38,664 nucleotides of DNA from Pseudothauera lacus. GTDB taxonomy: Bacteria > Pseudomonadota > Gammaproteobacteria > Burkholderiales > Rhodocyclaceae. The notes under the pieces are model-generated. The model made no database searches. It saw only the letters and a list, made by a program, of their open reading frames with translations, and had not been told where the DNA came from. The translations under genes and the position numbers were made by a program. Below, piece after piece: positions 1 through 17,907 of the stretch. The DNA is taken from contig NZ_PZKC01000018.1 of NCBI RefSeq assembly GCF_003034845.1, positions 1 to 38,664 on the forward strand, read 5' to 3'. Every line of letters begins with the position of its first letter. The first letter of the stretch is position 1.

Positions 1-133
1 ACCGGGACGCGAACCCTTCACCCTCGGTGCGGGCTATCTGCGCTTTCGGCGCGTCTATGCCGGTGCCAGCAACCTGCGCCTGACCAGATCCACCCCCGCC
101 GGCGAGGTCCCCGACGACACGGCGGTGGTGTAA
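1..133 (+). CDS. 3' end of an unidentified protein (partial)
   Basis: The open frame enters from the left edge and ends at a TAA at 131-133, giving about 43 residues that finish in ...VPDDTAVV. The piece is rich in Arg, Gly and Tyr (it contains GYLRFRRVYAG) and I recognise no family. Codon use (G/C third positions) fits the neighbouring genes, so a real gene tail is more likely than chance, but the start lies outside the window and no function can be given. Confidence 0.45.
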   Translation, partial: PGREPFTLGAGYLRFRRVYAGASNLRLTRSTPAGEVPDDTAVV

Positions 134-474
134 GCGGCTGCATTCATCACGACCGCTCATGCCACCACCGCCCCCATCGACGGCCATAATCCCATCCCAC
201 GACGGCCTCGCCGCGTGCAGCGAATGGGCTGTGAAAGCCCTATCCGAAGCACCTTCCGACCGTGACCTGGGATGAACCAAACTGAAACGGGCGCTGAGCC
301 CACATCCGTTCGGGCCTGTCGAAGCCCGTTCGAAGGCACTGCCATCAAGTGCCCTTCGACAGGCTCAGGGCGAACGGAGTACCCGTTTCCTGCGTCTGCT
401 TTGCCGCGCCCACGGCGGGGCATGCTCAGGGCGAACGGATTCAACCAGTGCCTGCCTGGCAGACGCCAGCGCGC
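134..474. other. Gene-free stretch between a gene tail and the dynamin-like gene
   Basis: No convincing gene lies here. Short open frames on both strands run through the repeat patch at 306-440 and show no recognisable domain. No clear T-tailed terminator was seen for either the leftmost gene or the minus-strand GTPase gene that ends at 475. Confidence 0.6.
306..440. repeat. REP-like inverted repeat patch
   Basis: A copy related to CTTCGACAGGCTCAGGG at 354-370 is followed by GCGAACGG. An inverted partner, CCGTTCGGGCCTGTCGAAG, sits at 306-324. A third partial copy (GCTCAGGGCGAACGGA) is at 424-439. An inner pair, AAGGCACT (332-339) and AGTGCCCTT (from 347), can form a hairpin. Repeats with this core are widespread in intergenic DNA of beta- and gammaproteobacteria; that is general knowledge, while the copies and their orientation are read directly here. 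Confidence 0.7.
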
Positions 475-2448
475 TCAGGCCGCGTGTTCGGCAGGCGGTG
501 CGGCCGCAGCTGCACTCGCCAGCCCCTCGGCGCCGAGGGCGCGACGGATGTCGCCAGCGAGATTCTCCAGCTCGTCGATCTGGCCAAGCAACTGCTCCTC
601 GGCCTGCTTGAGCTCCTCGACGCGCTCTTCCAGCGTATCGGTGGCCTGATGGATGCGCTTCACGCTCTCCAGACGGCGCTTGAGCTGGAGCTGGTACTCG
701 CGCACCTGGGTTTCCAGCGGCGACATCACCGCCCGCAGCCACTGCTCGACGTCGCGATTGGCAAGTTCGAAGGTACGCCGTGCCTGCACCGCCACGGTTT
801 CGAAGAACTTCTGGGTAAGCGAGTGCTTCTCCGTCGTCACCAGCACCAGGGTGCTGTTGAACTGGCGGTTGAAGGCACGCTCGAGGCGGTCGAGTTCCTT
901 CTCGTAGCGCAGCGTGGAGAAGGGCTCCGGCGGCGTCAGCTTGAGACCATGCTCAACCGTGAAACGCTTGTACATGGCGTTGAGCATGGTGGTGATCTCG
1001 GCGATCTCGTCCGAGGACAGGCGCATGTTGGCACGCAGACGCTCGAAGTAGCTCTCCATCGCGCCCTTCAGGCCGCGCGAGAAGGTCGATTCGAGCATCG
1101 CCGTGCGCGTGCGGCGGGTCTCGTCGCGCAGGGCGTCGAGGCCGAGGTGGCCGAGCAGGTTGTTGGTCAGGTTGGTGAACACCGAGCGCACCGCGTAGTA
1201 CTTCTGCAAGCCCTGCTCGAACTCCTGCTTCTCGGCGCGGATCTTGCGCATCATGTATTCGATGACGTTCTGGTTCTTGCCACGCAGGTCGGTGAGTTCC
1301 TTGAGCTGCTCGCGCAGGCCGCGCAGGCGGGCTTCGAGCAGGGCACCGGCCTGGACGACGAGATCCTCGGTCTCGCCCAGCGTGCCGTCGCGGACGATCT
1401 CCTGCTTGGTGGGCAGGAGATCTTCGGTGAGCGCGCGTTCGAGTACCGGCAGGCGGCTGCGTTCAAGCAGCGCGGCATCGCCGGAAATGCGCGCCACCAG
1501 CCCCTTCTGCGCCGACACCGGAAACACCTTGGCGGTGTCGATATCCAGGGTGTCGGCCACCGAAACCACCTGGCGGTCGATCTCGGCATCGATCTGCGCC
1601 GCATCGCGCAGGCCGTCCCACAGCCCGTCGATCTTGTTGAGGACCACCATCCGCCCCTTCTGGCGGCTCTGCCCGGCATCGACGTACTCACGCCACACCG
1701 CGCGATCGCTCTGCGTCACTCCGGTATCGGCGGCAAGGATGAACAGCACCGCATGGGCATTGGGCAGCAGCGACAGGGTGAGCTCGGGCTCCGCACCGAT
1801 GGCGTTGAGCCCCGGGGTGTCGAGCACCACCAGCCCCTGTTCGAGCAGCGGATGGGGAAACTGGATCACCGCGTGGCGCCAGCTGGGAATCTCCACCCGT
1901 CCGTCGGCGCCCGGCTTGAGGCCGGTGTCGCCGTTAGGATCAAGGCGGAAGCCGAGCTTGCGGGCCTCGTCCTGCGACACCCGGTGGGTCTCGCCGACGC
2001 GCGCCAGCGCCTTCTGCAACGCCGCCGGCGAAGCGATGTCGAGCTCGGTCACCTGCCACTCTTCGGGATAGCGCTTGAGCTCGCTGACCGTCCCCTGGCC
2101 GGCGCGCGTGGAAATCGGCAGCAGACGGATCTGCGGGGTGTCGCCCTGCGACCACTGCAGCTCGGTCGGGCACATCGTCGTGCGCCCGGCGCTCGACGGC
2201 AGGATGCGGTCACCGAAGTCGGAGAAGAAGATGCCGTTGATGAGCTCCGACTTGCCGCGCGAGAACTCGGCGACAAAGGCCACCGTGAGCTTGTCGTCGC
2301 GCAGGCGGTCGAGGATGTACTGCAGGCGCATGTCGCCCTGCGCATCACCGACCTCATTGCGGGTCAGCCAGGCTCTGAGCCGCCCCACCGCCTCGGCGGC
2401 ATTGCTACGCCAGCGCCCGTAGGCGGAAAACTGATCGACCAGGTTCAT
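475..2448 (-). CDS. Dynamin-like large GTPase
   Basis: A protein of 657 residues in the bacterial dynamin-like family, GTPases that bind and remodel membranes. The start at 2448 gives MNLVDQF with a GAGGG ribosome site just upstream; the longer frame from 2490 lacks one. The N-terminal G domain shows a P-loop AEFSRGKS (about 60-67), a switch region with RTTMCPTEL (about 89-97), DTPG (210-213) and NKID (271-274). The C-terminal half is highly charged and helical, with likely coiled coils and a final Glu/Lys/Leu-rich helix before an Ala-rich tail. The first P-loop glycine is replaced by Ala60 (relatives often have GEFNRGKS). No transmembrane segment is obvious. It lies downstream of mutM on the same strand with a 105-base gap. 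The substrate membrane and partners cannot be read from the sequence. Confidence 0.85.
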   Translation of the reverse strand: MNLVDQFSAYGRWRSNAAEAVGRLRAWLTRNEVGDAQGDMRLQYILDRLRDDKLTVAFVAEFSRGKSELINGIFFSDFGDRILPSSAGRTTMCPTELQWSQGDTPQIRLLPISTRAGQGTVSELKRYPEEWQVTELDIASPAALQKALARVGETHRVSQDEARKLGFRLDPNGDTGLKPGADGRVEIPSWRHAVIQFPHPLLEQGLVVLDTPGLNAIGAEPELTLSLLPNAHAVLFILAADTGVTQSDRAVWREYVDAGQSRQKGRMVVLNKIDGLWDGLRDAAQIDAEIDRQVVSVADTLDIDTAKVFPVSAQKGLVARISGDAALLERSRLPVLERALTEDLLPTKQEIVRDGTLGETEDLVVQAGALLEARLRGLREQLKELTDLRGKNQNVIEYMMRKIRAEKQEFEQGLQKYYAVRSVFTNLTNNLLGHLGLDALRDETRRTRTAMLESTFSRGLKGAMESYFERLRANMRLSSDEIAEITTMLNAMYKRFTVEHGLKLTPPEPFSTLRYEKELDRLERAFNRQFNSTLVLVTTEKHSLTQKFFETVAVQARRTFELANRDVEQWLRAVMSPLETQVREYQLQLKRRLESVKRIHQATDTLEERVEELKQAEEQLLGQIDELENLAGDIRRALGAEGLASAAAAAPPAEHAA

Positions 2449-9230: not shown

Positions 9231-10100
9231 TCAGCACCCCACCGCGGCCAGCATCGCCAGCGGTCCGGCGCGACGCACCACATCCATCTGTTCGCGCTGG
9301 CGCACGTAAACCACACCGCCGAAATTGATCGCGGCAATCGAGATGCCCTCGAAGCACTCCGCCGAACGCGGCACCACCAGCATCCAGTCCGCATCGACCA
9401 GCAGGTTGAAAGGTGGCAGCAGGCCGTCCTCGCCGGGCTCCAGCCCTAGCGCACCGCAGGCGCGCAGGAAGGCGCCGTGCATGCGCTGCGCGGCCTCATC
9501 CACCGAACATCCCGCGTGCACGCCGATGCGCACGAAGCAGTGGCGCATGCGCAAGGCCGCGTGGCTGCTCAGATAGCCCGGCGCACTGCCCGCCGGCAGC
9601 CCGGGCGCGTACAGACGCAGGCTGGCATTGCCTGGCGCATCCGGAATCCACTGCACATGCTTGTGGCGCTGGCTCGCCCCGGCGGCCGTGCCGCCATTGT
9701 AGAAACCCAGGCCGCCGGCCTCGCCCATGACCACAGCGAGCGCGTTGAAATCACACAGCGCCATCGGCAGCAACTGCTCCTCGAACTCGCAGCGGGCGAG
9801 CACCAGATGGCGCTCGCACACCGGAAATTTGTTGAGGATGGCCAGATGCGTCTCAGCGACCGGCCCCACGGTAAGCAAGGGGTCGGGATTGGCGAAGGGA
9901 TTGAAGCTGGGGTCGCGCGGCCCGCCGGGCATCGTCACCTTGGCCGCATCCTTCACCGCCAGCGTAGATACCCAGCGCAGCGCGAAGGGCAGCCCGGCAT
10001 CGAGCACGCGGCCCTCCTCCGCGCGGATCGGTTGCAGCGCCCCGGCCTGCAGTGCAGCGGCAATCTGCCGGTCCACTTGCTCAATGAATGGTGTCTCCAT
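9231..10100 (-). CDS. Ap4A phosphorylase-like ATP adenylyltransferase
   Basis: A 289-residue HIT-superfamily protein resembling diadenosine tetraphosphate phosphorylase (ATP adenylyltransferase), which splits Ap4A with phosphate into ADP and ATP. The catalytic stretch is NGGTAAGASQRHKHVQ, with the HxHxQ motif at His146-His148-Gln150; in this family the second His forms the adenylyl intermediate. Upstream residues FNPF and LNKFPVCERHLVL fit the substrate-binding part. The start at 10100 (METPFIEQ) has GGGAG about nine bases upstream; the longer frame to 10232 runs into Arg/Gly-rich non-coding sequence. A TACAAT -10-like hexamer is at 10166-10161 on the minus strand. It sits between pth and ychF on the opposite strand and interrupts the common pth-ychF pairing. 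Confidence 0.9.
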   Translation of the reverse strand: METPFIEQVDRQIAAALQAGALQPIRAEEGRVLDAGLPFALRWVSTLAVKDAAKVTMPGGPRDPSFNPFANPDPLLTVGPVAETHLAILNKFPVCERHLVLARCEFEEQLLPMALCDFNALAVVMGEAGGLGFYNGGTAAGASQRHKHVQWIPDAPGNASLRLYAPGLPAGSAPGYLSSHAALRMRHCFVRIGVHAGCSVDEAAQRMHGAFLRACGALGLEPGEDGLLPPFNLLVDADWMLVVPRSAECFEGISIAAINFGGVVYVRQREQMDVVRRAGPLAMLAAVGC

Positions 10101-10213
10101 CGTATTTTTCTCCCTTGCATGGTGTTCCGTGCGTCGGCGGCCGCTGCCGCCGTCCGGCCGATTGTAGGCCGCCGACGCGCCCGGCGGGCGCACGCCGCGA
10201 TCGCCGCTTCGGC

Positions 10214-10242
10214 TTGGGCCACGGCCACGCACGCGGTAGAAT
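10214..10242 (+). promoter_or_regulatory. Candidate sigma-70 promoter for ychF
   Basis: TTGGGC (10214-10219), exactly 17 bases, then TAGAAT (10237-10242). The start would be near 10250, about 46 bases before the ychF ATG. The spacing is optimal and the -10 is near consensus in a very GC-rich background. Confidence 0.6.
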
Positions 10243-10295: not shown

Positions 10296-11387
10296 ATGAG
10301 CCTGAAATGCGGAATCGTCGGCCTGCCCAACGTCGGCAAGTCGACCCTGTTCAACGCCCTCACCAAGGCCGGCATCGAAGCGGCCAACTACCCCTTCTGC
10401 ACCATCGAGCCCAACGTCGGCATCGTCGAAGTGCCGGACCCGCGCCTTGCCGCACTGGCCGAGATCGTCAAGCCGCAGAAGATCCAGCCCGCCATCGTCG
10501 AGTTCGTCGACATCGCCGGCCTGGTCGCCGGGGCCTCCAAGGGCGAAGGCCTGGGCAACCAGTTCCTCGCCAACATCCGCGAGACCGACGCCATCGTGCA
10601 CGTGGTGCGCTGCTTCGCCGACGACAACGTCGTGCACGTCTCCGGCAGCGTGGACCCGATCCGCGACATCGAGGTCATCGACACCGAACTCGCGCTCGCC
10701 GACATGGCCACCGTCGACAAGGCCCTGAACCGCTACAAACGCCCCGCCGCGGCCGGCGACAAGGAAGCCAAGGCACTCGTCGCGGTACTCGAGAAGTGCA
10801 TCGCCCAGCTCGACCAGGCCAAGCCCGTGCGCGCCCTCGACCTGGCCAAGGAAGAACTCGCGCTGATCAAGCAGTTCTGCCTGATCACCCAGAAGCCGGT
10901 GCTGTACGCCGCCAACGTTGCCGAAGACGGTTTCCAGAACAACCACCACCTTGACGCTGTGCGCGCCCATGCCGCCGCCGAAGGCGCCCAGGTCGTCGCC
11001 CTGTGCGCCGCCATCGAGGCCGAGATCGCCGATCTGGAAGACGCCGACAAGAAGGACTTCCTAGAGTCCATGGGCCTCGAAGAACCCGGACTGGATCGTC
11101 TCATCCGCGCCGGCTACAAGCTGCTCGGCCTGCAGACCTACTTCACCGCCGGGGTCAAGGAAGTACGCGCCTGGACCATCCACGTCGGCGACACCGCCCC
11201 GCAGGCCGCCGGCGTCATCCACACCGATTTCGAACGCGGCTTCATCCGCGCCCAGACCATCGCCTTCGACGACTTCATCCAGTTCAAGGGCGAAGCCGGC
11301 GCCAAGGAAGCCGGCAAGATGCGCGCCGAAGGCAAGGAATACGTGGTCAAGGATGGCGACGTGCTGAACTTCCTGTTCAACGTCTGA
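10296..11387 (+). CDS. ychF: Redox-regulated ATPase YchF (Obg-related)
   Basis: A 363-residue P-loop ATPase of the Obg/HflX class that associates with ribosomes. The sequence shows GLPNVGKST (residues 9-17), the G3 region DIAGLV, and the NxxE signature (NVAE, in [10 protein letters not shown]) in place of NKxD, the feature that gives YchF its ATP preference. The C-terminal TGS domain contains [19 protein letters not shown] and ends in the usual [14 protein letters not shown] at 10296 is followed by the canonical [14 protein letters not shown]. No terminator follows: an IS remnant begins within tens of bases of the stop and may have removed it. Confidence 0.97.
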
Positions 11388-11396
11388 GCACAGACT

Positions 11397-11640
11397 ACAG
11401 TTCACGGAAATCTGAACCATTCGCCGACGCCGTTCTGTTCCGGGCAGTGCGGCGTGATGAGCTCCTGAAGGAGGCCGTAGCTCTTCACCAGCGCCGTGCA
11501 GCTCACGGCTGTAGTGATCAATCACCAGCGCGCTCTTGCGCTTGGCGGTCCAAGGCTTGACCTCCTCTTCCATCAACGTGCTCATGCGTGGCGCTCCTTT
11601 TCACTTCACCACCTGAGCAGGTTTCGCTGGGTCAATACTT
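11397..11640 (-). mobile_element. Rearranged IS3-family transposase remnant
   Basis: Reading the minus strand from 11585, a start with AAGGAG upstream gives MSTLMEEEVKPWTAKRKSAL, the N-terminus of an IS3-family OrfA. The sequence then passes into VIDHYSRELHG, which resembles the DDE-domain start of OrfB, and after a frame change into ALVKSYGLLQELITPHCPEQ followed by NGV, the late OrfB region before the catalytic Glu. Most of both genes is missing. The element edges are estimates. It cannot encode a working transposase. Confidence 0.75.
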
Positions 11641-11646
11641 AACTTC

Positions 11647-12033
11647 ATGACCACCCCTTGCGTAGGCATCTTCTGGGGCATTCGTGACCCATCCCACGGC
11701 ATGGCTCTGTTGGCAGACAAGACGCCGATCGATCGCGGTGAGTTGTACGGCGATTGCATCACTCATCCGACCGGCCACTATGAGTTCTGGGAAGGGCTAT
11801 CGGGACTAGGTGCTGCCGTGCTGGCGGGCAGGGGGTTGCCGACCGCCCCCGCCTGGCATGAGTACGAGGAGTTCCCTCGTGGGCGGATCGTCTATTGGCC
11901 CGAGGAGCGGCGCTTCGTCATTTACGCAGACCGACGCCTGCAGACGACGGCCTTCATTGAGCACCTTGTCGCGGAGTTTGGCATCCCGAAGGGCAGCTAT
12001 GCCGTCCGTTCAGACCCCCACTACCGCGCCTAG
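11647..12033 (+). CDS. Conserved-looking 128-residue protein of unknown function
   Basis: The frame starts with ATG at 11647 and ends at a TAG after DPHYRA. There is no signal peptide or membrane segment. Notable segments are GIFWGIRDPSHGMALLADKT, then ITHPTGHYEFWEGL and EFPRGRIVYWPEERRFVIYA, and a C-terminal helix TAFIEHLVAEFGIP. The alternating hydrophobic pattern around RIVYWPEERRFVIYADRRL suggests a beta hairpin, so this reads as a compact soluble protein. I recognise no named family, though the sequence looks coding rather than chance. It starts just beyond the IS3 remnant and converges on the MBL-fold gene (9-base gap between stops). Whether it belongs with the nuclease pair is unknown. 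Confidence 0.6.
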   Translation: MTTPCVGIFWGIRDPSHGMALLADKTPIDRGELYGDCITHPTGHYEFWEGLSGLGAAVLAGRGLPTAPAWHEYEEFPRGRIVYWPEERRFVIYADRRLQTTAFIEHLVAEFGIPKGSYAVRSDPHYRA

Positions 12034-12042
12034 AGCGCCGAA

Positions 12043-13293
12043 CTACAGCGTTGCCGGCTCCCCATCAGCCAGCCTGCGAACAGCCGGAAAGCCCTCGGCC
12101 TCTGCATCCCAAGCGACGCCATGGACTGGAATCAGCGCTTGAGGATTGATGGCGGCAGCGAACTGGCGAAGGTCATCCGGGGAGGCGTGGCCGCTCGTGT
12201 GGATGTGGTTCGCTAGGCACTGGCCTTGATCGAACCAGGCCTGAACCCGGCTGCCGTCCCCACCACGCAAGTAGCCGTGCCACATCGACCATGACCACGC
12301 ATCCTGCCGGTTCGGCGCGACCCCCTTCTTCTCGAAGTCCCTTATCAGCGACGGGCGGGTCATCACCACCCACTTCGATGGCGTCTCAGCCAGCTTGTCC
12401 GCCGAGATTCCATGCATGGCCATCCGATCCACAAAGTCGCCCCGGCCGGTGTCCCGGTACATCCGGGCAAACGCCTTCGTAATGACCACCTTGATGTTCG
12501 ACCAACTCGGATGAGGCAATCGCCCGAAATCGGCCACCAGTTCCATCACCTCGGCAGTGTAGAGATCGACGACCAGTGTCCTGCCGGCAGCCTTGCACGC
12601 CCGGTAGAGTGTTACCGTCCTGTCGATGTTCTGGGCTGACCAAGCGACGAACACACGCCCTGACGTTGCTTGAAATAACGCCAGGAACCGTTTCTCCAGA
12701 TCCGTTTCGCTCGAACACGGCTTGCTACTTCCTAGGTTCGTACCCTCCATCACCAGCGCATTGACCGATGCCGGCGGTGAACCCATCAGGCGCCTGACCA
12801 GTGCCGACTTCCGGCCATGCAGCCGGAAGTCCCCTGAATACAGCAGCCGCTTACCTGCCACCTCGATCAGCAGCATGTATGCATCGAACGCCGAGTGATC
12901 AGTGAGAAGCGGCGTTACGGTAAATGGGCCCAGAGTGAAGGGTCTGCCACTTTCCCAGTTGTGGAACGACTGCCGCGGGGCCCTCCCGAAGATTCCGGAA
13001 GTCAGCCTGATCAGCTTTTCCGATGCCCTGCCGCAGAAAACCGGCCAGGATGCAGGAAGCTCATCCAGCAAGCCGTAGTGATCTTGATGGGGGTGAGATA
13101 GCAGCACGCCAGCGACCGGCCTGCCAACATCGAGGGTACTGGGAAGCAGTCCTTCGCAAGCTCCTTCCGGGGCGTCCAGCGGACGCCCTGCATCGAGCAG
13201 AACCCGCGAGCCGTCAGCAGTGGCGACCTCTATGCAGTTGCCGCCGATTTCGTGAGCAGCCCGATGAATCGTCAGCGTAACCCTGCCGCTCAT
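12043..13293 (-). CDS. Beta-CASP / RNase J-like metallo-beta-lactamase-fold protein
   Basis: A 416-residue MBL-fold hydrolase most like RNase J-type nucleases that cut RNA or single-stranded nucleic acid with two metal ions. Metal-binding residues are visible: SHPHQDH (His67, His69, Asp71, His72), TDHSAFD (His133) and YSGDFR (Asp155). MEGTNLG (Glu183) matches beta-CASP motif A, HTSGHAS (His368) the late motif, and PVHG (His391) the closing one. It is shorter than true RNase J (about 550 residues) and lacks the C-terminal domain, so a housekeeping role is unlikely. Its ATG overlaps the stop of the upstream PD-(D/E)XK-like gene by four bases, which suggests coupled translation and a shared job. 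Its GC content is visibly below that of the core genes. Confidence 0.85.
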   Translation of the reverse strand: MSGRVTLTIHRAAHEIGGNCIEVATADGSRVLLDAGRPLDAPEGACEGLLPSTLDVGRPVAGVLLSHPHQDHYGLLDELPASWPVFCGRASEKLIRLTSGIFGRAPRQSFHNWESGRPFTLGPFTVTPLLTDHSAFDAYMLLIEVAGKRLLYSGDFRLHGRKSALVRRLMGSPPASVNALVMEGTNLGSSKPCSSETDLEKRFLALFQATSGRVFVAWSAQNIDRTVTLYRACKAAGRTLVVDLYTAEVMELVADFGRLPHPSWSNIKVVITKAFARMYRDTGRGDFVDRMAMHGISADKLAETPSKWVVMTRPSLIRDFEKKGVAPNRQDAWSWSMWHGYLRGGDGSRVQAWFDQGQCLANHIHTSGHASPDDLRQFAAAINPQALIPVHGVAWDAEAEGFPAVRRLADGEPATL

Positions 13294-14099
13294 TTCCCTC
13301 GTGCTCGCTCAAAACGGCCCGAGTCACCGGCATATGTTGCAACCAGGAATTTGCCCGCTGTCGCCTGCGCGACGATGTCCATTTCCCTGCCACTCGGCGA
13401 CTCGGGCCAGATGATCAGCAACTGCGCGTCATCGAAGGAAATGCACGACCTCGGCTTGCCCGTTGCATTTTCGAGCAACTGCAGAAAGCTGTCGCCGGCA
13501 AGCTTCATCGCATTTCTGGCAGCCTCAAGCTGCTTGATGAGGCGCCCGAGAGCCCGGACCGCCTTAAGCTCAATGAACACCGGGAAGTACCTTCCCTGCA
13601 TTCCCCCGAGCGCGATGATGTCTGCCCGGATGTGGCCTGCCGCCAGTTCGTCCGTCACGAAAACAAGTTCGTCAATAACATCTGAGAAACCGTCGGCAAG
13701 GTCATGCAGGGACAAGTCATTCATGAGTGCATGCCGGATCAGGGCTGCTTGCATCTGATGTTCGGGCTTGGCGTTCCGCGGGCAATAGAACTCGGCGACC
13801 TCGGCCTCCTCGGCACTGCTCAGTGCTGCGGACATACTCACCGCGCTGCCGATGACCGCCCCGCTCCCTTTCCGGCAGAGACGCCCGCAGGGGTTGAAAG
13901 GGGAAAGCGAGACGGGGCGATAACCCGCTCCCCCTACGCGAACGTAGAAGTCGCGCGCAGCGAGCCTCCTCAGGGCCGCCAGATCTGCCCGCCAGGCATT
14001 GAATAGCTGAGCCCTCTTCTCGATGCCTCCAATCCAAGCGGCTGTTCCAAGCGAATCGCTCACGGCCTGTCCCCACATGTTTGCGGTTAGCGCCCGCAT
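13290..14099 (-). CDS. PD-(D/E)XK nuclease-like protein of unknown function
   Basis: A 269-residue protein from the start at 14099, which has GGGGTGAGA directly upstream; the longer frame to 14189 has no ribosome site and an Arg-rich, non-protein-like start. The C-terminal half carries a PD-(D/E)XK-type core: Glu113 in a helix (KPEHQMQAALIRHAL), RADIIAL with Asp160, FIELKA with Glu177 and Lys179, and a following helix with Gln190 (RLIKQLEAAR). That arrangement is typical of restriction-endonuclease-like folds. The N-terminal half (1-100) has no motif I know and could be a recognition part. It overlaps the RNase J-like gene by four bases. The domain call is from pattern reading; a role in defence or nucleic-acid repair is inference. 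Confidence 0.65.
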   Translation of the reverse strand: MRALTANMWGQAVSDSLGTAAWIGGIEKRAQLFNAWRADLAALRRLAARDFYVRVGGAGYRPVSLSPFNPCGRLCRKGSGAVIGSAVSMSAALSSAEEAEVAEFYCPRNAKPEHQMQAALIRHALMNDLSLHDLADGFSDVIDELVFVTDELAAGHIRADIIALGGMQGRYFPVFIELKAVRALGRLIKQLEAARNAMKLAGDSFLQLLENATGKPRSCISFDDAQLLIIWPESPSGREMDIVAQATAGKFLVATYAGDSGRFERARGK

Positions 14100-14474
14100 T
14101 CTCACCCCGGCACGTTGCGAGAGGGTCACCACGCTGCCGTGGTGCGCCGTGCGGGCCGAGCGACGCTGAAGGCGTAGCTCACACGACATCGAGGCGGCGT
14201 GACGGCGTACGGTGTGCGACGGCGAGTACTTCGACTCCCGCAGCGGGGACGGAGTGAGGAATGCGTGCTGGAGGCTGGATCATTGCCGACGGCGGCACCG
14301 AAATCAACCGTGCCACTTGATCTCTCAGCCGGCATGCCCCCCGCCCTTGGGGCGATGCCGCGTCGTGCGCGGCGTTCTTTCTTCCGCCTGGGCCCTGCCG
14401 AACAGACAATTGCAGACACTCTGCCACACCGCTGTGCCACAATTTCTCATCCTTCGATACACAGCGGACAACGC
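14100..14474. other. Intergenic region between the nuclease pair and the MocR gene
   Basis: This stretch separates two divergent genes. Several short open frames cross it but none has a ribosome site together with a recognisable domain. On the plus strand the last 70 bases before the MocR start are AT-richer, with TTGCAG at 14411-14416 and an AT-rich CACAATTTC stretch from 14438. The spacing between them is too long for a good promoter, so a MocR promoter is likely there but not placed. Confidence 0.5.
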
Positions 14475-15875
14475 ATGCTGCAACTGAGCCTTGAACACGG
14501 GCAGGCCACACCCCTGGTGGAACAGATCGTCGGCGGCATTCGCAACCAGATCGAGGATCGCATCCTGCGCCCGGGAATGCGCGTGCCGCCCATTCGCCGG
14601 CTGGCGGAAACCCAGGGGGTGAGCCGTTTCACCGTCGTCGAGGCATACGACCGCCTGGTCGCGCTGGGTTACCTGCGCTCGCGGCGGGGCTCGGGTTTCT
14701 ACGTCGCACCACGCCAGGAGCGCAGCGAAATCCGCCTGCCGGCGCCAGTGGACCGCGCGGTCGACGTGGCCTGGCTGATGCGCCAGGCTCTCGACGACCG
14801 TCCCGGCCAGGTCAAGGCGGGCGCCGGCTGGCTGCCCTGCGAGTGGCTGGACGGTGACGGCCTGCGCCGCCACCTGCGCGCGCTGTCGCGGCGCACCGAT
14901 GCCCGCCTCACCGGCTACGGCACCGCCCAGGGCTATCTGCCGCTGCGCCAGCAGTTGCAGGTCAAGCTGGCCGAATTCGGCATCGGCGCGCGCCCCGAGC
15001 AGATCGTCCTCACCGAGGGGGCGACACGGGCGCTCGACATCGTCGCCCGCCATCTCATCAAGCCCGGCGATACGGTGCTGGTGGACGATCCCGGCTACTT
15101 CAACTTCTTCGGCAATCTGCGCCTGCAGGGCGCCAAGCTCGTCGGCGTTCCCCGCCATGCCGACGGCCCTGACGTTGCAGAGATGGAAGCCCTGCTCGCC
15201 CACCATCGCCCCAAGGTGTTCTTCACCCAGTCGGTGCTGCACAACCCCACCGGCAGCAATCTCGCCCCGGCAAAGGCTTTCCGTATCCTGCAACTGGCCG
15301 AAAAGCACGATTTCCACATCATCGAGGACGACGTCTACGCCGACTTCCAGCCCCAGGCCACGACCCGCCTCGCCAACCTCGACCAGCTCAACCGGGTGAT
15401 CTTCATCGGCAGCTTCGCCAAGACCCTGTCGGCCAGCCTGCGCGTGGGTTACCTTGCCGCACGCGCCGACCTCGCCGCCGAGCTGACCGACGTGAAGATC
15501 CTCACCAGCGTCAGCTCCTCCGAGTTCAACGAACAGCTCACCTACCAGATGCTCACCGACGGCCACTACCGCAAATACGTCGAGCGCCTGCAGGGGCGGC
15601 TGGCGCAGGCCACCGAGAGCTGCCTGCGGATGTTCGAACGCGTCGGCCTGGAAGTCTTCCTCGAACCCAAGGGCGGGGTGTTCCTGTGGGCCCGCCCGCC
15701 GGGCGTGGAGGACGTCGCCGCGCTGGCGACACGCGCCGCCAGCGCCGGCATCATGCTCGCCCCGGGCAAGGTGTTCCGCCCGCAGATGCAGGCCAGCCCG
15801 TGGCTGCGCCTGAACGTTGCGTTCGCCAATCACCCGGCGCTGGAGCGTTTCCTCGGCGAGGCGCTGGGCGGCTGA
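14475..15875 (+). CDS. MocR/PdxR-type regulator (GntR helix-turn-helix plus aminotransferase fold)
   Basis: A 466-residue PLP-dependent transcription factor. Residues about 10-77 form the GntR winged helix, with VPPIRRLAETQGVSRFTVVE and AYDRLVALGYLRSRRGSGFY. From about 120 on it has a fold-type I aminotransferase domain with HNPTGSN, IIEDDVYADF and SFAKTLSASLRVGYL, in which Lys316 should bind PLP. Such proteins sense PLP or an amino-compound and usually control a neighbouring gene. Here the upstream neighbour is the divergent nuclease pair and the downstream one converges, so the target is not obvious. The ATG at 14475 matches the usual short lead before the HTH; the longer frame to 14199 is rejected. 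Confidence 0.9.
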   Translation: MLQLSLEHGQATPLVEQIVGGIRNQIEDRILRPGMRVPPIRRLAETQGVSRFTVVEAYDRLVALGYLRSRRGSGFYVAPRQERSEIRLPAPVDRAVDVAWLMRQALDDRPGQVKAGAGWLPCEWLDGDGLRRHLRALSRRTDARLTGYGTAQGYLPLRQQLQVKLAEFGIGARPEQIVLTEGATRALDIVARHLIKPGDTVLVDDPGYFNFFGNLRLQGAKLVGVPRHADGPDVAEMEALLAHHRPKVFFTQSVLHNPTGSNLAPAKAFRILQLAEKHDFHIIEDDVYADFQPQATTRLANLDQLNRVIFIGSFAKTLSASLRVGYLAARADLAAELTDVKILTSVSSSEFNEQLTYQMLTDGHYRKYVERLQGRLAQATESCLRMFERVGLEVFLEPKGGVFLWARPPGVEDVAALATRAASAGIMLAPGKVFRPQMQASPWLRLNVAFANHPALERFLGEALGG

Positions 15876-17609: not shown

Positions 17610-17727
17610 CGGAGTGCCCGCTGGCTGAGTACGGATAAACAACATCTTCGGCCATCCGGCGGCAAGCTTGAGGGCCGGGCGCCACAACTTGCCTTCACCG
17701 GGACCATGCAGTATCGTCCCCGGCTTA

Positions 17728-17812
17728 CCGTTGGGGGTGCCCGCCGGCTGGCGGCGGGCTGAGAGAGTCCCTTGGAACCTGATCCGGATCGCACCGGCGT
17801 AGGGAAACGCGT
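17728..17812 (+). promoter_or_regulatory. TPP riboswitch (thi box)
   Basis: The conserved parts appear in order: GGGGGTGCCCGC (about 17733-17744), a GC-rich variable hairpin, CTGAGAGAG (17759-17767), ACCTGATCCGG (17777-17787) and GCGTAGGGAAACGC (17798-17811). This is the thiamine pyrophosphate aptamer, upstream of thiD-thiC as expected for feedback control of thiamine synthesis. No hairpin with a T-run follows before thiD, so control at the level of translation is more likely than termination. The AGGGA of the last conserved block lies ten bases upstream of an ATG at 17816. Confidence 0.95.
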
Positions 17813-17815
17813 CAG

Positions 17816-17907
17816 ATGACTTCATTCCGTCCGCAGTTCCGTCGTACCGCCATTGTGCCGGCTCTCGCCGCCGCACGCATATCGCACTGCCCGCGATGGG
17901 GCGCACG

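Follow-up and report, generated by a model that had tools for sequence, protein, structure and literature searches.

A beta-CASP nuclease gene with exchangeable PD-(D/E)XK partners: a candidate mobile two-enzyme module behind ychF in Pseudothauera lacus

We analysed a 38,664-nucleotide stretch of Pseudothauera lacus DNA (the window; bases 1-38664 of its contig, from a genome of 3.66 Mb in 41 contigs), focusing on two overlapping genes that encode a predicted PD-(D/E)XK nuclease and a short beta-CASP nuclease of the metallo-beta-lactamase (MBL) fold (Table 1). The main finding, well supported by sequence comparison across genomes, is a module with partner exchange, in which the beta-CASP enzyme is kept while its PD-(D/E)XK partner gives way to others that share its fold type. 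We put the chances at about even that the two overlapping genes in the window are one copy of such a horizontally moving two-enzyme module.

Table 1. Features of the gene pair and its insertion site in the window
Feature	Position	Strand	Remarks
beta-CASP (RNase J-like core) nuclease, second gene	12043-13293	-	416 aa; Pfam, NCBIfam, alignments
Predicted PD-(D/E)XK (NucS/EndoMS-like) nuclease, first gene	13290-14099	-	269 aa from the ATG at 14099
ATGA overlap, first-gene stop and second-gene start	13290-13293	-	sequence
ychF 3' end with att-like 18-mer TTCCTGTTCAACGTCTGA	11370-11387	+	sequence comparison
Interspersed repeat resembling a miniature inverted-repeat transposable element (MITE), about 180 bp, terminal inverted repeats CTAGCCCGCATTTCTCAC...	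14089-14270	.	covers the first-gene start
128-aa protein	11647-12033	+	runs towards the pair; 13 of 96 beta-CASP loci have a homologue

The product of the second gene matched the Pfam families Lactamase_B_2 (5e-13), Lactamase_B and RMMBL. All of MBL motifs 1-4 and motifs A, B and C were found in it, which identifies it as a beta-CASP protein (motif 2, H67, H69, D71 and H72; motif 3, H133; motif 4, D155; motif A, E183; motif B, H369; motif C, H391; names assigned from the alignments). Its nearest solved structure is EF2904 (PDB 2az4, E 6.6e-29), with RNase J structures next, and the segments HPHQDH, DHSAFDA, SGDFR, the acidic motif A and HTSGHA...PVHG align onto EF2904 or RNase J. With the NCBIfam RNase J model TIGR00649 it scored 71.6 bits against a cut-off of 400, and we therefore regard it as a short beta-CASP protein rather than an RNase J. 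While the window family shares with RNase J the MBL and beta-CASP core, the motifs and the ...HTSGHA...PVHG end, it is about 410 aa long, ends after motif C and lacks the C-terminal domain of RNase J, and is patchy, mobile and paired with a PD-(D/E)XK gene. Pfam, the model score and the alignments agree here with an earlier reading made from the window's letters (the sequence-only reading), which had described a short MBL-fold protein with RNase J-like motifs and no RNase J C-terminal domain.

Among 94 homologue rows the motif positions are kept in 91-94, with gaps in the remaining rows and, in one case, Glu at D34, and the metal-site residues (those listed above for motifs 2-4 and A-C) are kept in every non-gap row. 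Motif C is histidine in 91 of 91 non-gap rows. According to PMC3095777, a motif C histidine marks RNA enzymes of the beta-CASP family and a valine DNA enzymes; because of its histidine, the window protein points to RNA and probably acts on it. The type VII CRISPR protein Cas14 is likewise a beta-CASP nuclease, in a setting presumed to be defensive, but the window protein, compared by protein model alone, matched it weakly and far below the cut-off (19.9 bits against 800). Phage anti-CBASS and anti-Pycsar proteins are reportedly MBL enzymes that cleave cyclic nucleotides, which raises the alternative that the beta-CASP protein is a small-nucleotide phosphodiesterase or an anti-defence protein, with a separate defence or counter-defence gene as its neighbour. 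The accessible part of PMC9117128, on phage anti-CBASS and anti-Pycsar nucleases, contains the term MBL fold. However, the window protein has a beta-CASP region with motifs A-C, aligns with RNase J and EF2904, and scored only 14.6 bits with a cyclic nucleotide phosphodiesterase model whose cut-off is 400; we consider this alternative very improbable.

The product of the first gene had no sequence match in Pfam, NCBIfam, PHROGs or PDB. Its predicted structure contains an alpha-beta-beta-beta-alpha-beta core with the D...ExK residues, which places it in the PD-(D/E)XK fold class (residues E113, D160, E177, K179 and Q190). Among the fold families compared, which were those that VIA-align lists, NucS/EndoMS (2vld, 5gke) was closest. 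NucS/EndoMS is a mismatch repair nuclease that acts on DNA; the Pfam model NucS_C had no match on the first protein at E values up to 1, so the protein was not assigned to the NucS family itself. In the nearest relatives of the beta-CASP protein, the preceding gene belongs to another family, g1, for which the same core and D...ExK residues are predicted. This family had no match in Pfam, NCBIfam or PHROGs and only chance-level matches in PDB (E 0.12 or worse), and HamA was among the structural matches of both g1 and the window protein. In profile comparison the window partner and g1 aligned over the D...ExK region with a probability of 6.5%, and sequence kinship between them is not established; a second partner family, g2, was likewise weak against g1 (20%). 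XisH, Card1/Can2, Shedu, HamA and FokI also belong to the PD-(D/E)XK fold class. The window protein and g1 share the core fold and D...ExK residues with these and with NucS/EndoMS, but match none of them in sequence, have other N-terminal parts and are coupled to a beta-CASP gene. The two nuclease folds named in the sequence-only reading are supported, by fold prediction for the first protein and by motifs and alignments for the second; the core it gave for the former (Asp160, Glu177, Lys179, Gln190) is correctly positioned and invariant across the three known homologues.

Homologues of the beta-CASP protein were collected from a one-per-species genome scan, from which we took the best 80 of 481 confirmed by tblastn, a choice that makes the set lean to close relatives. 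Together with seven viral-contig loci, eight plasmid loci and locus L010, these gave 96 loci (L numbers below). The homologues are patchily distributed over 16 named phyla and plasmids, although many rows are metagenome-assembled genomes, so individual phylum assignments may be wrong. Among the plasmid tblastn matches listed, full-length relatives came from Cupriavidus (60%), Cereibacter, Sphingomonas, Rhizobium and Ochrobactrum, and more distant ones from Prevotella and Butyrivibrio. Using a single regular expression for D...ExK, we found an adjacent, same-strand open reading frame (ORF) with the motif at 64 of 96 loci (65 of 132 adjacent ORFs), whereas among control ORFs more than 2 kb distant 12 of 274 carried it; the expression was composed after examples had been seen, its hit in L034 is false (a phosphoesterase) and it missed some partners.

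The partners belong to several families. The g1 family has 32 members in a first clustering and occurs at 53 of 96 loci in a wider one, and 19 of 40 upstream g1 ORFs share a four-base overlap with the beta-CASP gene. In other close relatives the same position is occupied by g2 (9 of 96 loci), and a further six loci carry a third partner, c9. Nearly all lie on the beta-CASP strand (54 of 54 g1, 8 of 9 g2 and 6 of 6 c9 ORFs). Elsewhere, singletons with D...ExK cores, recognized by eye, adjoin the beta-CASP gene. At two loci from the same bacterial family as the window, a PDDEXK_4 protein (Pfam, E 4.7e-11) adjoins a shortened beta-CASP frame (L192), and a 273-aa motif-bearing ORF lies 0.9 kb behind the beta-CASP gene (L191).

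The association also held when searched from the partner's side. On plasmids, a beta-CASP gene accompanied g1 in seven of seven records, with a gap of at most 0.7 kb; these include the query's own record and two Rhizobium phaseoli records with identical coordinates. In 398 genomes drawn from the phylum, nine contained g1, and beta-CASP was near it in eight of them. Six of the nine have an adjacent, separate beta-CASP frame, L202 has only a fragment, and L203, where g1 is interrupted, has none. In L210, at a contig edge, a single open frame (40-1953, minus strand) spans beta-CASP and the beginning of g1 and stops inside g1, which reflects either a fusion of the two genes or a faulty assembly. 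The 150 genomes closest to the window, with its own among them, contained no g1, and no g2 was found on plasmids.

We next mapped the partners onto a beta-CASP tree of 94 rows (from 97, three beta-CASP ORFs shorter than 330 aa being omitted), built by a quick method without bootstrap. Five partner labels required 25 changes, compared with a mean of 39.2 after shuffling, and g1, g2, c9 and the window type alone required 13, where the minimum possible is three; a label denotes a partner anywhere in the retrieved locus, and some labelled partners, including those of L083 and L097, are not adjacent. The window protein falls in a 42-row clade (support 100) in which 33 rows carry g1 and 5 carry g2; L083 and L097, which carry window-type partners, lie in a different part of the tree. 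This scatter of labels shows that one conserved enzyme has repeatedly acquired a new partner. What is conserved, as judged from these alignments and neighbourhoods, is this beta-CASP family together with some predicted PD-(D/E)XK protein, and not one exact pair. The expectation in the sequence-only reading that the pairing would recur in unrelated genomes thus stands in part: beta-CASP does recur there beside some PD-(D/E)XK protein, and at different loci rather than always the same one, but the exact partner of the window is rare and adjacent to beta-CASP in this window only.

Conservation of this exact pair was accordingly rejected. Two draws, of 369 and 398 genomes, yielded the window partner from its own genome only, and a third, of 399, from its own genome and as one weak, partial match with stops (the three draws may overlap); searches of plasmids and viral contigs did not find it. 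This rarity is among several observations that weigh against counting the window pair as a copy of the module. The partner family comprises three known copies, and the other two, both in islands behind ychF, are neither adjacent to beta-CASP nor on its strand but antisense to it, 2.8 kb away in L083 and 1.0 kb in L097. Four of five fold models of the family were poor, 32 of 96 loci (among them the Rhizobium leguminosarum plasmid locus L137) have no motif-bearing neighbour, and the window pair as such is unique in this data set. The adjacency could then be accidental, the PD-(D/E)XK gene being independent cargo of ychF islands that inter-island recombination placed before beta-CASP. Set against this are the ATGA overlap, the gene order and the length, all resembling those of g1 and g2, and the shared fold type; in addition, the two beta-CASP lineages with a window-type partner nearby are split by strongly supported branches. 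We regard accidental adjacency as possible though rather unlikely. Since the window pair is unique, we infer its partnership from overlap, order, size and fold.

For the module as a whole, the recurrent exchange of partners is in keeping with an arms race against phages or competing mobile elements, making a role in immunity or inter-element conflict the most likely. We tentatively propose, with less than even confidence, a widespread and undescribed modular immune or conflict system in which a constant RNA-type beta-CASP enzyme and an interchangeable, target-setting PD-(D/E)XK protein would hit invader DNA and RNA. The PD-(D/E)XK protein would be the exchangeable subunit that recognizes and cuts the target, probably DNA as in the case of NucS/EndoMS, and beta-CASP the constant effector, degrading transcripts or processing nucleic acid that its partner exposes. 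Joint action of the two proteins, like the targeting of both DNA and RNA and the defence role, is something we infer. If they do cooperate, they would form a nuclease pair with one fixed and one exchangeable half, found across the 16 phyla and matching nothing in the defence library. Such a pair would connect mobile conflict systems with beta-CASP RNA enzymes, which are known mainly for RNA processing; its natural partner exchange makes specificity open to partner-swap tests. The repeated swap of PD-(D/E)XK families beside one enzyme would surprise specialists.

PADLOC returned no families for either window protein at E values up to 10, so the defence role that the sequence-only reading had itself offered as conjecture gained no model match; representatives of g1 and c9 had no match either, and g2 a single one at chance level (E 0.049). 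Matches to 28 PADLOC families fell among 97 neighbour ORFs, versus 15 among 96 control ORFs, the former ORFs hand-picked from 110 printed of 168 candidates after 13 likely shadow ORFs were dropped, the latter taken from 20 arbitrary stretches of related genomes with a different taxon mix. As far as the accessible part of its description goes, Hachiman (HamAB) resembles the module in combining a small nuclease with a single conserved partner that is encoded next to it, but the partner here is a beta-CASP nuclease rather than a helicase, and the window pair had no PADLOC match. By titles and abstract starts among the matches listed, the open-access literature describes no system with this pair, in agreement with the earlier reading; in the accessible parts of two of these papers, MBL is mentioned once, within an abbreviation list (PMC11090510), and 'metallo' occurs in the reference list only (PMC12839542).

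Several other genes recur beside beta-CASP. A PcfJ-like gene follows it in L010, L076, L083, L097 and L100 (Pfam 9e-9 for the neighbour in L083, with a homologue in L097), WYL regulator genes are close by in L010, L083 and L097, and a calcineurin-type phosphoesterase gene overlaps it by four bases on Cereibacter and Prevotella plasmids (L029, 7221-7865; L034, 6455-7024).

A ligase-associated repair operon combines an MBL exonuclease with a phosphoesterase. The module might accordingly serve DNA or RNA repair or the upkeep of its carrier element rather than immunity, as the overlapping phosphoesterase and the NucS/EndoMS-like fold of the first protein, with its mismatch repair associations, both recall. 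Yet the distribution is very patchy, the partner has been exchanged repeatedly, motif C is of the RNA type, and the incomplete gene tables of the seven annotated plasmid loci list neither a ligase nor an Lhr-type helicase. A repair role therefore appears distinctly unlikely to us, and an immune or conflict role remains our preferred, tentative reading.

The position of the pair in the window is consistent with horizontal movement. Homology to all five genus relatives stops at the ychF stop codon (one contig ends 1.4 kb on), and in two of the five an integrase-like ORF, identified by eye, starts about 200 bp behind ychF. Loci L081, L083 and L097 likewise lie behind pth-ychF, and the integrase of L083 matches Phage_integrase (Pfam). 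The 18-mer at the ychF stop forms a direct repeat in L083 (3226-3243 and 14498-14515, 11.3 kb downstream), and L081 has a copy at 13443-13460, 10.2 kb downstream of a diverged ychF end. The ychF 3' end is an integration site for tyrosine-integrase elements, with repeats at the far ends of 10-11 kb elements. The break in homology and the elements at the ychF end place the window pair at an integration hotspot, bearing out, together with the adjoining MITE-like repeat, the mobile-looking site of the sequence-only reading. That beta-CASP is an ordinary chromosomal gene was rejected, as it occurs in 4 of 199 genomes of the same bacterial family, its own included, and none of the five relatives has homology right after ychF.

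Composition and gene structure also match the earlier description, which had two minus-strand genes with a four-base overlap: both ORFs are present and share the bases ATGA, which supports translational coupling. Its hand counts of 35 and 46 GC bases in 60 are exact, though longer stretches show a milder contrast (61.1% GC across 12043-14099 versus 67.9% for the window outside 11388-14269). On the right, the MocR gene it named is MocR-like (246 bits with the NCBIfam PdxR model, below its cut-off of 320), whereas Pfam gave no confirmation of an insertion sequence remnant in the ORF at 11061-11585 on the left. It had overlooked the small plus-strand gene, the att-like site and the MITE-like repeat.

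This repeat has 28 matches in its own genome, partial ones included, and some in three of the five other genus genomes. The first ORF remains open to 14189 (299 aa), the extension beyond 14099 falling inside the repeat. No promoter-like site was found at 13950-14500, in a type of scan that carries little weight, no integrase is present among the window ORFs beside ychF, and the 18-mer occurs in the window only once, at ychF. The missing integrase and the repeat at the 5' end make expression of the module here uncertain, and with the absent promoter-like site and second att-like copy they would fit a decayed, functionless remnant of a family active elsewhere. Both ORFs are nevertheless intact, all catalytic residues are in place, and a Shine-Dalgarno-like GAGG stands just ahead of the beta-CASP start; we judge decay unlikely, and an intact copy of the module remains the reading we favour.

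The 128-aa protein was rejected as an obligate third part, because its homologues are at only 13 of 96 loci, sometimes kilobases away, and also occur without beta-CASP. On plasmids, tblastn found its family in 34 records (25 from Acinetobacter), 2 of which are among the 40 beta-CASP records listed out of 46; a profile detected it at two more beta-CASP loci, L032 and L137. Elsewhere in the window, an Ap4A phosphorylase gene (9231-10232, minus strand) separates pth and ychF, which are less than 100 bp apart in four genus relatives, and an ordinary thiamine pyrophosphate riboswitch (17723-17822, plus strand) stands just ahead of a plus-strand ORF at 17896.
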